NCBI GenBank assembly: GCA_024689465.1
Contig: JAILDL010000034.1
Location: forward strand, 1-64,000
Reading direction: 5' to 3'
DNA from: Lachnospiraceae bacterium
Lineage (GTDB): Bacteria > Bacillota > Clostridia > Lachnospirales > Lachnospiraceae
DNA: 64,000 bases
The notes under the pieces were generated by a model that saw nothing but the letters and a program-made list of their open reading frames with translations, was not told the DNA's origin and searched no databases. Position numbers and translations under genes: made by a program. Shown here piece after piece: positions 42,990-48,947 of this stretch. The stretch's first letter is position 1, and every line of letters begins with the position of its first letter.

Positions 42990-43307
42990 ATGAATGAAAC
43001 CAAAAACAGTTGCTGCGCCTGTTCTGCAGGTAAGACCAAAGTCCGCTCCGAGGAGGAATACAAAGACCTGATAAAGCGCTTAAACCGCATCGAGGGCCAG
43101 ATCCGCGGGATCAAGGGTATGGTGGAAAACAGCGCCTATTGCCCGGATATTCTGACCCAGGTCAGTGCTGCCACCAGCGCCTTAAACAGTTTTTCCCGTG
43201 TGCTTCTTTCCAGCCACATCCGCACCTGCGTGGTCAATGATGTGAAGGAAGGCCATGAGGAAACCGTGGACGAACTGCTGGATACCCTGCAGAAAATGAT
43301 GAAATAA
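42990..43307 (+). CDS. csoR: CsoR-family copper-sensing repressor
   Basis: 105 residues. An extra N-terminal CCAC cluster is followed by a three-helix bundle: RLNRIEGQIRGIKGMV near residue 29, the copper ligand Cys in AYCPDIL near 50, and SHIRTCV near 75-79 with His and Cys. This Cys-His-Cys set is the Cu(I) site of CsoR. It precedes copA by 15 bases and the operator lies upstream. Copper binding should release it from DNA. Confidence 0.93.
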   Translation: MNETKNSCCACSAGKTKVRSEEEYKDLIKRLNRIEGQIRGIKGMVENSAYCPDILTQVSAATSALNSFSRVLLSSHIRTCVVNDVKEGHEETVDELLDTLQKMMK

Positions 43308-43322
43308 GAAAGGATCCGACAT

Positions 43323-45941
43323 ATGGAACAATACACTGTTACCGGCATGACCTGTGCAGCCTGCCAGGCCCGGGTGGAAAAGGCGGTTTCTTCTCTCCCC
43401 GGCGTGACCTCCTGCTCCGTCAGCCTTCTTACCAATTCCATGGGGGTGGAGGGTGATGTCCCTCCTTCTCAGGTCATCGCCGCCGTTGAAAACGCCGGCT
43501 ATGGCGCTGCGCCCCGAACTGCTTCTTCCGGGGCGGATGCTTCCCGAAAGAATCCATCCTTCGACCGGATCGCAGCAGAGGAGGACGCCCTGAAGGACAG
43601 GGTCACACCGCTGTTAAAAAAGCGTCTTTTGACCTCCCTTGGTTTTCTCCTGGTCCTGTTATATTTTTCCATGGGGCACATGCTGTTTGGCTGGCCGCTT
43701 CCTCCCTTCTTTGAGGGAAACCATGTGGCCATGGGCCTGCTGCAGCTTCTGCTGACGGGGATCATCCTGGTGATCAACCAGCAGTTCTTTATCAGTGGTT
43801 TTAAAAGTCTGCTGCACCGCTCTCCCAATATGGATACCCTGGTCTCCCTGGGTGCATCCGCTGCGTTTCTCTACAGCACCGTCGCTCTCTTCCTTATGAC
43901 AGGAGCCCAGGTCCGGGGAGATTCCCAGGCGGTCATGGGCTTTATGGATGAATTCTATTTTGAATCTTCCGCCATGATCCTGACACTGATCACGGTGGGA
44001 AAGATGCTGGAAGCCCGCTCCAAGGGAAAAACCACCGATGCCTTAAAGAGCCTGATGAAGCTTTCTCCCAAAACCGCCACCCTTCTGGTGGATGGAAAGG
44101 AAACCACCGTTCCCATTGAAGAAGTGCAGGCAGGGGATCTCTTCGTGGTCTATCCCGGAGAAAACATTCCGGTGGACGGCATCGTTACGGAAGGAACCAG
44201 TGCGGTTAACGAAGCGGCTCTGACCGGGGAAAGCCTTCCCGTGGATAAAGGGGCGGGGGATAAGGTTTCCGCCGCTACTGTCAATCAGTCCGGCTTTCTC
44301 ACCTGCAGGGCTACCAGGGTAGGAGAAGACACCACCCTGTCCCAGATCATCCGCCTGGTCTCCGATGCGGCTGCCACCAAGGCCCCCATCGCCAAGATCG
44401 CCGATCGGGTTTCCGGGGTCTTTGTGCCGGTGGTCATCGGCATCGCCCTGGTGACCTTCCTGATCTGGCTGCTTACCGGTGCGGACTTTGGCTTTGCCCT
44501 TGCCAGAGGCATCGCCGTTTTGGTGATCAGCTGTCCCTGCGCACTGGGTCTGGCAACTCCCGTAGCCATCATGGTAGGAAACGGTCTGGGTGCCAAAAAC
44601 GGGATCCTGTTCAAAACCGCCGCTTCTCTGGAAGAAGCCGGCAGAGCACAGATCCTTGTTCTGGATAAAACCGGTACCATTACGGCCGGGGCTCCCGCAG
44701 TGACCGATCTGCTGCCGGCGCCGGGCGTAGCTACGGAAGCGCTGCTTGCAACTGCGTTATCCGTTGAGCAGCGTAGCGAACATCCTCTGGCCAAAGCCGT
44801 TACTTCCTATTGCGAAGGAAAACAGCTCCGGTCCCGGGTTCTCACCGATTTCCGGGCGCTTCCCGGAAACGGACTGATGGGCTCTTTTGAGAATGCCACC
44901 ATCTATGGCGGAAATGCCGCCTTTATCTCCGAACAGGTTTCCCTTCCGGAAGAAGTAAAAGCGGAAGCTGCTGCTCTGGCTATGCAGGGTAAGACGCCTC
45001 TCTTCTTTGCGATTCATGCAAAAGATGAAACGCCCCGGTATCTGGGCTGCATCGCCGTAGCGGACGTCCTTCGGCAGGACAGTCCCGAGGCCATTCGTCA
45101 GTTAAAACATCTGGGCCTGCATGTGGTCATGCTCACCGGTGATAACAGGCAGACCGCAGACGCCATCGGCGCTTTGGCCGGTGTGGACGAAGTGGTCGCC
45201 GGCGTTCTGCCGGAAGGCAAGGAAGCGGTGATCCGCTCCCTGCAGGAAAAAGGAAAGGTCATCATGGTGGGAGACGGCATCAACGATGCACCGGCTCTTA
45301 CCCGTGCCGATGTGGGCATTGCCATCGGAGCAGGTACCGACGTGGCTCTGGATGCTGCCGATGTGGTGGTGGTAAAGAGCCGTCTGCGTGATGTGGCCGG
45401 AGCCGTCCGTTTATCCCGGGCAACCTTACGGAACATACATGAGAATCTGTTCTGGGCCTTCTTTTATAATGTCATCGGCATCCCGCTGGCGGCCGGTGCT
45501 TTTATCCCGGCTTTCGGCCTTACGCTGAGTCCCATCTACGGCGCTCTGGCCATGAGCTTATCCAGCTTCTTCGTGGTTTCCAACGCCCTTAGGCTGAACC
45601 TGTTTAAGCTGCAGGATCCCGCAAGGGACAAACCACTGAAACATGCCATCCGTTTACAGGATGGCAAAACCCTGATACAGGACACACTGCAAACAAAATC
45701 TATGGAGGAATCAAACATGTCTGAAAAGAACACCAAAACCATTGTCATCGAAGGAATGATGTGCGGCCACTGCGAAGCAAACGTCAAGAAAGCACTGGAA
45801 GCACTGCCCCAGATCGCCGAAGCCACCGTCAGCCACGAAAGCGGCACCGCTGTGGTCACCCTTGCAGGGGACACGCTGGACGAAGCTCTGGTAAAAAAGA
45901 CCATCGAGGACAAGGACTACAAATTTGTAGAGATCAAGTGA
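43323..45941 (+). CDS. copA: Copper P-type ATPase fused in frame to CopZ-like domain
   Basis: 872 residues. Order: N-terminal HMA domain with GMTCAAC (Cys11, Cys14); six or more TM helices; actuator TGES; CPC in the channel (Cys404-Pro-Cys406); phosphorylation DKTGTIT (Asp448); GDGINDAP hinge; final TMs. A second HMA domain, residues 799-872, is at the C-terminus with GMMCGHC. Most CopA end about residue 790-800. The C-terminal HMA begins with its own RBS and ATG, so a separate chaperone may also be made. The pump exports Cu(I). Confidence 0.93.
45704..45719 (+). promoter_or_regulatory. Internal RBS and start for CopZ-like peptide
   Basis: GGAGG lies 8 bases before an in-frame ATG at 45717, inside copA. 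This is the spacing of a normal start and better than that of many genes here. Confidence 0.75.
45717..45941 (+). CDS. copZ: CopZ-like copper chaperone (internal start within copA)
   Basis: A 74-residue heavy-metal-associated domain begins [19 protein letters not shown], with Cu(I)-binding Cys residues spaced CxxC. It is the length of a normal CopZ. It is in the same frame as copA, so the same codons also encode the C-terminus of the full pump. Either the two are a natural fusion made by loss of a stop codon, or both forms are made. The free form would carry Cu(I) to the pump or to CsoR. Confidence 0.55.
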
Positions 45942-46025: not shown

Positions 46026-46424
46026 CTATCGGAACCGTCCGAAGAACTCTGCCATGGGTGTAACAACATCATGGAGACTCTGGATGGATGTATTTAAGGT
46101 ATCGATATCAATGGAGTTGATCCGCTCCATGGCCCCGGTCAGATCCGAGCTGGCATTGGCAAGATCCGTGCTGGCGCCGGCAATGAGATCATCCAGGCTT
46201 TGAAGGGTATCCCCGATCTTCGCCTCCCGCAGCTCATTGGAAACCACTTCCAGGTTCTCGCTGGTGACGATGAGGGTATCATAGAGGTTATTAAACTTCG
46301 GCATAAGCGTCATGGCCACAACGGCTATGATCAGGAAAGTACACAAGGCGGAGCAGGCCGTCACGATCATGCACAGTTGCTGCCGCTTCATCATCTTTAA
46401 TTGTTTCTCCTGAAAATCATCCAT
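46026..46424 (-). CDS. Small one-TM protein with coiled-coil tail
   Basis: 132 residues from the ATG at 46424, with AAGGGG upstream. A TM helix (near 20-40) is followed by a helical region rich in Asn, Leu, Ser and Asp with heptad character (SENLEVVSNELREAKIGDTL, SLDDLIAGAST). No family is clear; DUF948-like proteins have a similar plan. It stands alone. Confidence 0.65.
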   Translation of the reverse strand: MDDFQEKQLKMMKRQQLCMIVTACSALCTFLIIAVVAMTLMPKFNNLYDTLIVTSENLEVVSNELREAKIGDTLQSLDDLIAGASTDLANASSDLTGAMERINSIDIDTLNTSIQSLHDVVTPMAEFFGRFR

Positions 46425-46566
46425 TTTTATCCCCTTCCCGGTGTTTTTCTTTCCGAAGTTCACCTACCGTTTCATTCTAGCATTCTCCCTTCCATCCTGC
46501 AAATGTGCGCATTTATGCTGGATTTTCCGTCAGATAGATTGCGCGAAATATTTTTGCACAAAACTG

Positions 46567-46604
46567 TTGACAGGAATTTTAGATTGTGCTAAATTTAATT
46601 TAGC
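46567..46604 (+). promoter_or_regulatory. Promoter and operator of the peroxidase/thioredoxin operon
   Basis: TTGACA at 46567-46572 is followed after 17 bases by TAAATT. The -10 lies inside GCTAAATTTAATTTAGC, a perfect 8-1-8 inverted repeat at 46588-46604. A repressor of the PerR or OhrR type is plausible, but no regulator gene is adjacent. Confidence 0.65.
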
Positions 46605-46699
46605 TCAAGAGAGCAACCGAACTTAAAACAGAACACCAAAACCAAACGCACAAAGCAAACAATACTGTATGGCAGCTTTTGCTGCAGAAGGAGAACGAC

Positions 46700-47242
46700 A
46701 TGGGATTTTATGATTACGCTGTAAAGAACACAGATGGTGAAGATGTATCCATGAAGACATTCGAGGGCAAGGTGGTCCTGGTTGTGAATACCGCAACCGG
46801 TTGCGGGTTCACTCCTCAGTACAAGGATCTGGAAGATATGTATGAGCAGTTCCACGAGCAGGGACTTGAGATCCTGGATATCCCCTGCAATCAGTTCGCA
46901 GGACAGACTCCCGGAACCGACGAAGAGATCCACGAGTTCTGTACTCTGAAATACAAGACACAGTTCGAACAGATGAAGAAGTCCGAAGTAAACGGAGAAG
47001 GCGCACTTCCTCTGTACACCTACTTAAAGAGCCAGAAGGGCTTTGAAGGATTCGGCAAGAGCCCCGCAGCTCTGGCCATGAGCGTTATGCTTAAGAAGAT
47101 CGACAAGGATTATAAGAACAACCCCGACATCAAGTGGAACTTCACAAAGTTCGTGGTAGACCGTCAGGGGAATGTCGTAGCACGTTTCGAGCCCACCGCT
47201 GATATGAAAAAAGTTGCAGAGTGCGTTCAGTCTCTTCTGTAA
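46700..47242 (+). CDS. gpx: Glutathione peroxidase family, Cys type
   Basis: 180 residues from the ATG at 46700 (AAGGAG ahead). The peroxidatic Cys35 in TATGCGFTPQ replaces selenocysteine. CNQFAGQ near 64-70 and the WNFTKFVVD segment supply the Gln, Trp and Asn partners. Cys-type members in bacteria normally use thioredoxin as reductant, and thioredoxin and its reductase follow in the operon. It removes hydroperoxides. Confidence 0.93.
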   Translation: MGFYDYAVKNTDGEDVSMKTFEGKVVLVVNTATGCGFTPQYKDLEDMYEQFHEQGLEILDIPCNQFAGQTPGTDEEIHEFCTLKYKTQFEQMKKSEVNGEGALPLYTYLKSQKGFEGFGKSPAALAMSVMLKKIDKDYKNNPDIKWNFTKFVVDRQGNVVARFEPTADMKKVAECVQSLL

Positions 47243-47290: not shown

Positions 47291-48169
47291 ATGGAACGTT
47301 ATGATATCGCGATCATCGGTACCGGTCCTGCAGGACTTTCTGCAGCCATCACGGCAACCATTCGAAATAAAAAGATCATCCTGTTCGGTAGCAGGGATCT
47401 GAGCAACAAGCTGGCAAAGGCTCATACCATTAAGAACTATCTGGGTCTTCCCGAAATCTCCGGAGCCGATCTGGGCAAGGCCTTTACCGATCATTTAAAG
47501 GCCATGAACATCGAGATCACAGAGGAAAGAGTCAATGCCATTTATTCCATGGGCGATTACTATACCCTGCAGATGGCAACGGAAGATAATAAGATGTATG
47601 AAGCCTCTTCCGTTATCCTGGCAACCGGTGTAGTTGCCGGAAAGCCTTTCCCCGGCGAAGAAGAACTGCTGGGCCAGGGCGTCAGCTATTGTGCGACCTG
47701 TGACGCCATGCTCTATCGCGGCAAGAGCACTCTTGTGATCGGCTACAGCCCCAAGGAGGAAGCCGAAGCAGAGTTCCTTTCCGAAGTGGTGGATCAGGTA
47801 TATTACATCCCCATGTATGCAGACGAACTGCATCTGCCCAAAAAGGTTCAGGTGATCCGGGAGAAGCCTCTGGAGATCCTGGCAGATGGTATGAAGAAAG
47901 TAGTCAAAACCGACCAGAACTCTTATACTGTAGATGGTGTATTCATTCTCCGGGATGCCGTATCTCCCGGACAGCTGGTACCCGGTCTGGAGACCGAAGG
48001 AAGCCATGTTAAGGTAGACCGCAGCATGAGCGCTTCTCTTCCCGGCTGTTTTGCCTGCGGAGACATCGTAGGCGCACCCTATCAGTATATCAAGGCTGCC
48101 GGGGAAGGAAACATCGCCGCTTTATCCGCTGTTTCCTATCTGGATCAGCTGAAACGTCAACAGGCTTAA
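47291..48169 (+). CDS. Thioredoxin reductase-like flavoprotein lacking NADPH motifs
   Basis: 292 residues. The FAD GxGxxG at IGTGPAGLSAAI and the C-terminal FAD motif FACGDIVG are present. The redox pair is Cys134-Ala-Thr-Cys137 in YCATCDAM. The NADPH part is unusual: the GGGDSA motif is replaced by VIGYSPKEEAEAE, and the HRR motif is absent (YYIPMYADEL). These losses match ferredoxin-dependent flavin thioredoxin reductases described in Clostridium. GGAGG precedes the ATG. It likely reduces the thioredoxin encoded next. Confidence 0.85.
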   Translation: MERYDIAIIGTGPAGLSAAITATIRNKKIILFGSRDLSNKLAKAHTIKNYLGLPEISGADLGKAFTDHLKAMNIEITEERVNAIYSMGDYYTLQMATEDNKMYEASSVILATGVVAGKPFPGEEELLGQGVSYCATCDAMLYRGKSTLVIGYSPKEEAEAEFLSEVVDQVYYIPMYADELHLPKKVQVIREKPLEILADGMKKVVKTDQNSYTVDGVFILRDAVSPGQLVPGLETEGSHVKVDRSMSASLPGCFACGDIVGAPYQYIKAAGEGNIAALSAVSYLDQLKRQQA

Positions 48170-48196: not shown

Positions 48197-48511
48197 ATGG
48201 TAAATATCGTAGAAAATAACAACACAGAAGCAATGAACGCAAGCGAGTACGCACTGGTAGATTTCAATGCTACCTGGTGCGGTCCCTGCAAGATGTTAGG
48301 ACCGGTTGTGGAAGAACTGTCCGGTGAGTATGCCGGAAAGGTGGATTTCTACAGCGTAGATGTAGACGATAACCCCAAGCTTGCAGAGATGTACAACGTT
48401 ATGAATATCCCCACCCTGGTGGTGTTAAAAAAGGGTGAGAAGGTTGCCCAGACCGTAGGCTTCCAGCCCAAGCCGGTTCTGGCAAAATGGATCGAAGGTG
48501 CTATGGCATGA
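48197..48511 (+). CDS. trxA: Thioredoxin
   Basis: 104 residues with FNATWCGPCKMLGPV near residue 28-42 (WCGPC active site) and the cis-Pro in MNIPTLVVL near 73. It is a single-domain cytoplasmic thioredoxin that should donate electrons to the peroxidase. It lies 27 bases after the reductase gene and overlaps the flavodoxin start as ATGA. Confidence 0.95.
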   Translation: MVNIVENNNTEAMNASEYALVDFNATWCGPCKMLGPVVEELSGEYAGKVDFYSVDVDDNPKLAEMYNVMNIPTLVVLKKGEKVAQTVGFQPKPVLAKWIEGAMA

Positions 48512-48924
48512 AAGTAGCTGTCCGTTATTATACACAGACCGGTAATACCCGGAAGTTATGCGACGCCATCGCTTCCGCTCTGGGTGTGGAAGCAAAGAGC
48601 GTAGAAGCTCCCTTAGAGGAAACCGTTGACCTGCTGTTTCTCGGAAGCAGCGTTTATGCCGCAGGTGTAGATCCTGCCATCAAGAAATTCATAAACGACC
48701 TGGATCCTTCCAAGGTAGGCAGCGTTGTAAACATCTCTACCGCAGCGCTTCTGCCTTCCACCTACAATCAGGTAAAGAAGCTCCTGACCGCAAGGAACAT
48801 TCCTGTATGCCCGGAAGAGTTCCACTGCCGTGGTCAGTTCCATGCCCTGCATAAGGGTAAGCCCGATGCAGCAGATCTTGCTGCTGCCGTATCCTTCGCA
48901 AAGAAAATGACCGGAGCCCAGTAA
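48508..48924 (+). CDS. Flavodoxin-like protein
   Basis: 138 residues from the ATG at 48508, which overlaps the thioredoxin stop as ATGA. YTQTGNTRKL near residue 8-17 is the phosphate-binding loop for FMN, and LFLGSSVYAAG near 46-56 is the second loop. The C-terminal part is shorter than in classical flavodoxins. Coupling to thioredoxin and to a reductase that lacks NADPH motifs suggests it carries electrons to that reductase, which is an inference. Confidence 0.85.
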   Translation: MKVAVRYYTQTGNTRKLCDAIASALGVEAKSVEAPLEETVDLLFLGSSVYAAGVDPAIKKFINDLDPSKVGSVVNISTAALLPSTYNQVKKLLTARNIPVCPEEFHCRGQFHALHKGKPDAADLAAAVSFAKKMTGAQ

Positions 48925-48947
48925 TCTGGGGCTCCGGCCTTTTTTTG
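48911..48947 (+). terminator. Terminator after redox operon
   Basis: An 11-bp stem with one bulge (CCGGAGCCCAG / CTGGGGCTCCGG) is followed by CCTTTTTTTG. It begins inside the last codons of the flavodoxin gene. Confidence 0.88.

Follow-up and report, generated by a model that had tools for sequence, protein, structure and literature searches.

A Putative OhrR-Linked Operon for a Thiol Peroxidase, an FFTR-Type Thioredoxin Reductase, Thioredoxin and a Flavodoxin-like Protein in a Lachnospiraceae Bacterium

Organization of the locus

The DNA analysed here (the window) is a 64,000-nucleotide stretch of a Lachnospiraceae genome. It contains an operon that consists, in order, of a promoter, genes for a glutathione-peroxidase-family protein (GPx), a ferredoxin-dependent flavin thioredoxin reductase (FFTR), a thioredoxin (Trx) and a flavodoxin-like protein, and a terminator, with all four genes on the + strand. 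The predicted sigma-70-type promoter (46567–46595, + strand), TTGACA-17-TAAATT with a TG before the −10 element, agrees with the consensus at 10 of 12 positions and was the best of seven matches in the region. The gene for the Cys-type thiol peroxidase of the GPx family runs from an ATG at 46700 to 47242 (+ strand), and is followed by the CATC-containing FFTR, the open reading frame of which is exactly 47291–48169 (+ strand, 292 amino acids). The Trx gene (48197–48511, + strand) encodes a WCGPC motif and a product that scored above the TIGR01068 cut-off, and its stop codon is overlapped (ATGA) by the start of the gene for the short-chain flavodoxin-like protein (48508–48924, + strand). The candidate intrinsic terminator (48911–48946, + strand) has the stem CCGGAGCCCAG / CTGGGGCTCCGG followed by T7; the sequence forms a strong stem-loop, and its 3′ part was flagged by a motif scan. 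The other genome of the genus has the same four-gene order, with 90% identity for the FFTR and 81% for the flavodoxin, and so the arrangement with a flavodoxin-like last gene, to which a preliminary description of this DNA had drawn attention, is present in both genomes.

The GPx matched PF00255 (E = 2e-38), with yeast HYR1 (3cmi) as the top match. Its motif NTATGCGFTPQY and EFC match those of Gpx3/HYR1, and the cysteines of the segments TGCGFTPQY and EFCTLKY fall at the HYR1 cysteine positions, so that the peroxidatic Cys and the second Cys are both kept. The window GPx is of the yeast Gpx3/HYR1 type and is likely to be thioredoxin-dependent, and because both redox cysteines are kept it should draw on thioredoxin and not on glutathione. 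The earlier proposal of a Cys-type peroxidase linked with Trx and the reductase is well supported.

Tandem GPx paralogues, with about 48–56% and 43–48% identity to the window GPx, precede the FFTR gene at relatives' loci L078, L092, L093, L094, L095, L103, L107 and L111. GPx also adjoins FFTR in contigs labelled as Treponema (L083, L098 and L133), which suggests either that the GPx-FFTR module has spread beyond the Firmicutes or that metagenome-assembled genomes (MAGs) were mis-binned; L133 is cultured T. socranskii.

A csoR-copA copper operon is located at 42990–45941 of the window, and in the other member of the genus (L059) it likewise precedes gpx. The CopA reading frame has heavy-metal-associated domains at both ends, and the C-terminal domain is possibly a fused CopZ. 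Between copA and the gpx operon, a convergent gene (46026–46463, − strand) that is conserved in the genus encodes a small, probably membrane-anchored protein.

Identity of the thioredoxin reductase

The loss of motifs was evaluated by alignment to the canonical thioredoxin reductase (TrxR) of the same genome (L001), an NADPH-type enzyme that contains GGGDVA and HRRDTLR. The FAD motif is GTGPAGL in the window reductase and GAGPAGL in L001, and the active site is CATCDA with the CxxC intact. The pyridine-nucleotide loop reads VIGYSPKEEAE, in contrast to VSGGGDVAVED in L001, and the HRR segment is IPMYA, shorter by four residues, in contrast to IHRRDTLRA. Relative to L001, the GxGxxA and HRRxxxR NAD(P)H motifs are absent, as the preliminary description had read from the letters, along with the intact FAD motif and CATC. 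A similar loss was seen in the other 53 FFTR relatives of a 54-sequence set, throughout which C134, A135, T136, C137 and D138 are invariant.

In a phmmer search of the PDB, the top three matches of the window reductase were the C. acetobutylicum FFTRs 6gnc, 6gna and 6gnd, with E values from 2e-105 (6gnc) to 3e-89, whereas the next thioredoxin reductase had an E value of 6e-36, a gap that excludes a chance match. The structure 6gnc is that of CaFFTR2 (PMC8469568), and the window reductase is about 56% identical to it over the full length. The AlphaFold2 model (pLDDT 89.7) superposed on 6gnc with a Z score of 37.6 and an rmsd of 2.9 Å over 287 residues, whereas superposition on most NADPH-type TrxRs gave an rmsd of about 10–15 Å because the domains are rotated differently. 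The predicted conformation is open, as in the FFTR crystals. Every sequence and structural feature examined fits the FFTR class, and the membership of the window reductase in this class, which had been proposed from its motifs, is well supported by both the sequence and the model; the absence of an NADPH site is likewise upheld by sequence and predicted fold.

A reductase with a site rebuilt in such a way that it still accepts NAD(P)H, or else a different low-molecular-weight donor, might be imagined from the TrxR fold retained in the model and from the divergent NAD(P)H loops used by some oxidoreductases. However, the loss of the NADPH motifs across the 54-sequence set, the fit of the model to the open FFTR form and the description of FFTRs as unable to use NADPH (PMC12796991) make this very improbable. 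We infer that the window FFTR is reduced by ferredoxin and not by NADPH.

The window FFTR resembles the C. acetobutylicum FFTRs (6gnc, 6gna, and 6gnd with Trx) in its CATC, its missing NADPH motifs and its open domain arrangement, but differs in that it is encoded in an operon with GPx, a flavodoxin and an OhrR-type box, and in that its electron donor is putative. The TrxB1 protein of C. difficile is without the same NADPH motifs and has been termed an FFTR, and the TrxA1-TrxB1 operon, in which the FFTR similarly adjoins Trx, has a role in stress defence and is induced by O2 (PMC10880999). However, that operon has two genes, unlike the four of the window operon, and is controlled by sigma-B and sigma-G, and the text of that paper has no mention of a glutathione peroxidase or a flavodoxin for TrxA1-TrxB1 (PMC10880999), both of which are present in the window operon. 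The FFTRs as an enzyme class and the pairing of FFTR with Trx are already published knowledge.

The putative OhrR operator and FFTR loci in relatives

A 25-bp near-perfect palindrome, TTGTGCTAAATTTAATTTAGCTCAA (46584–46608), overlaps the −10 element of the promoter and contains the core AATTNAATT, and is a putative OhrR-type operator. When up to three mismatches were allowed, there was one such site per genome in both genomes of the genus, each upstream of gpx, and a control pattern gave no match in these two genomes. The same core is found in the B. subtilis OhrR box consensus, TACAATTNAATTGTA (PMC6034001), from which the window box differs in its flanking half-sites, TTGTGCTA/TAGCTCAA. As in the B. 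subtilis system, a palindrome with this core lies over the promoter and an OhrR orthologue is present in the genome. The target differs, in that OhrR classically controls the peroxidase Ohr/OhrA, whereas here it would be GPx-FFTR-Trx-flavodoxin. PerR commonly regulates peroxide responses in clostridia; as a candidate for control of the window operon it was provisionally set aside on sequence grounds, the palindrome having the OhrR core instead.

There is no ohrR gene within the window operon. The single clear OhrR of this genome is encoded on another contig (C38:9259–9729), which is part of a draft MAG that is 82% complete and 3.6% contaminated. This gene's own promoter, TTGACA-17-TAAAAT, carries the box TTGCATAAAATTTAATTGAAGCAAA at the matching place, and the sensor-Cys stretch of its product is LKNQLCFPLYA. 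In profile searches, the best PDB match of the regulators encoded at the FFTR loci of relatives was B. subtilis OhrR (1z91/1z9c, E = 9e-54), and the sensor-region residues Q14, C16 and F17 are invariant among these regulators.

At loci outside the genus, OhrR-like boxes with a score of at least 14 were found upstream of 21 of 40 gpx genes, 9 of 13 flavodoxin (fld) genes and 8 of 43 leading fftr genes, compared to a background of 14 of 414 other genes. The score was devised after the window site was known, and the genus of the window was left out of the counts; the p-values are optimistic because the loci are phylogenetically related and the score is post hoc. The window operon looks to belong to an OhrR regulon and to respond to organic peroxides, with the box as the putative site of OhrR binding. 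The preliminary description was right about the FFTR, the loss of the NADPH site and the link to GPx, but overlooked both the OhrR-type operator and the presence of ohrR in this operon in most relatives.

Genes within 2.5 kb of 80 FFTR loci were counted with tblastn, which gave ohrR at 56, trx at 54, gpx at 52 and fld at 9. The usual module among relatives is GPx-FFTR-Trx-OhrR, with ohrR mostly kept in the operon. A CxxCxxCxxxC scan for ferredoxin genes beside FFTR gave only two cases among the neighbours, both within larger proteins.

In the part of the literature covered, no paper was found that links clostridial OhrR, GPx and TrxR with one another, or a flavodoxin with a clostridial FFTR. 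The novelty of an OhrR-controlled GPx-FFTR-Trx module and of an OhrR-linked flavodoxin family is a lead that falls short of proof. The core of three genes may well have been described already, as C. acetobutylicum appears to have a trxA-trxB-GPx-type operon under PerR, although no paper on it was found in the literature covered.

The flavodoxin and a proposed electron pathway

The flavodoxin-like protein was predicted to have a flavodoxin fold (pLDDT 93.5), and the model matched the short-chain flavodoxin of C. beijerinckii (3nll, 2fox) with a Z score of about 16 over 125 residues. The fold is the same, but the identity is only about 21%, and the window protein falls in a separate clostridial family. 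This family is nearest to the Flavodoxin_3/BilS/EFR1 models, far under the NCBIfam cut-offs, and membership in BilS (24 bits relative to a cut-off of 155) or EFR1 (23 relative to 75) was rejected. The protein has a phosphate-loop-like segment, TQTGNTRKL, and an invariant Y50, and is a putative FMN-binding, low-potential electron carrier.

Among 149 other genomes of the family, all 14 with close fld relatives also contained gpx (p = 1.4e-6), whereas 2 of the 14 contained FFTR (1.6 expected, p = 0.66). Close relatives of fld lie beside GPx and/or OhrR without FFTR at L028, L029, L031, L033 and L034, and further cases are L035, L038, L040, L041 and L048. Other fld relatives have no adjacent GPx yet have an OhrR-like box just upstream (L042, L044, L045, L054 and L056). 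Because fld tracks GPx and OhrR boxes, also where FFTR is absent, the suggestion in the preliminary description that the flavodoxin may be an electron source of the FFTR is not supported by its distribution. The family is best read not as a dedicated FFTR component but as an optional part of the OhrR/GPx response that recurs across genomes and may still serve the FFTR in those holding both.

The chances are about even that the flavodoxin is a general substitute for ferredoxin under peroxide stress, one that is coregulated with GPx and serves PFOR, NfnAB or other partners without a special link to FFTR. This possibility bears on the flavodoxin alone and can hold together with the remainder of the explanation favoured below. 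It accords with the co-occurrence of fld with GPx and not FFTR and with four of the boxes upstream of fld genes lacking an adjacent GPx (L042, L044, L045 and L054), whereas the substitution of flavodoxin for ferredoxin is classically a response to iron limitation or superoxide and not one linked to OhrR, and the partner is putative.

It is unlikely that the flavodoxin is a dedicated donor that replaces ferredoxin for the FFTR in an all-flavin pathway. Such a role would fit the translational coupling of fld, the last gene of the operon in this genus, and its presence in FFTR operons at four different positions across other lineages: following Trx at L060, L061 and L119, preceding gpx at L078 and L111, preceding fftr at L086 and L091, and following fftr at L117. 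The fld tree requires three changes for the FFTR-linked label, with modest supports, which also speaks for this role. However, the low frequency of fld at FFTR loci, its chance-level co-occurrence with FFTR as opposed to its constant association with gpx, and its close relatives in OhrR-GPx operons without FFTR all count against it, and the genome co-occurrence led us to reject a dedicated partnership as the default.

The explanation that we favour, and consider probable, is that the locus is an OhrR-repressed, organic-hydroperoxide-inducible operon that encodes a complete thiol-peroxidase chain, with the flavodoxin as a co-induced carrier. The observations on which it is based are the gene identities, motif losses, folds, operator sequence, gene order and co-occurrence. 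OhrR, encoded on the other contig, would hold the box at 46584–46608 until its Cys is oxidised by organic peroxide, upon which the operon would be released and its products made. Electrons would pass from reduced ferredoxin to the FAD and then the CATC of the FFTR, to the WCGPC of thioredoxin and to the Cys-type GPx, with an organic hydroperoxide or H2O2 as the final acceptor; within this scheme we infer the electron donor, the direction of flow, the binding of OhrR and the partner of the flavodoxin. A PFOR-type gene, the product of which could possibly reduce ferredoxin, is present in the same genome. The flavodoxin would be a co-induced low-potential carrier, most likely replacing the iron-sulfur ferredoxin once peroxide damages it, and may serve the window FFTR, yet would be part of the general OhrR/GPx response.

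The genome also contains the canonical NADPH-type TrxR and NfnAB-like genes, and so independence from NADPH does not extend to the whole cell; the NADPH-free peroxide defence proposed earlier applies to the FFTR branch only. A chain that is entirely flavin-based and iron-free, in which the OhrR-induced flavodoxin takes the place of oxidant-sensitive ferredoxin as FFTR donor, seems doubtful. If true, it would allow thioredoxin and GPx to stay reduced in an anaerobe despite the destruction of iron-sulfur clusters.

On the favoured explanation, the clostridial FFTRs would gain a physiological setting, in which an OhrR-governed response to organic peroxide is coupled to a thiol peroxidase. In addition, a small flavodoxin family is named as a likely member of the OhrR regulon, which makes the in vivo donor of the FFTR, ferredoxin or flavodoxin, directly testable.
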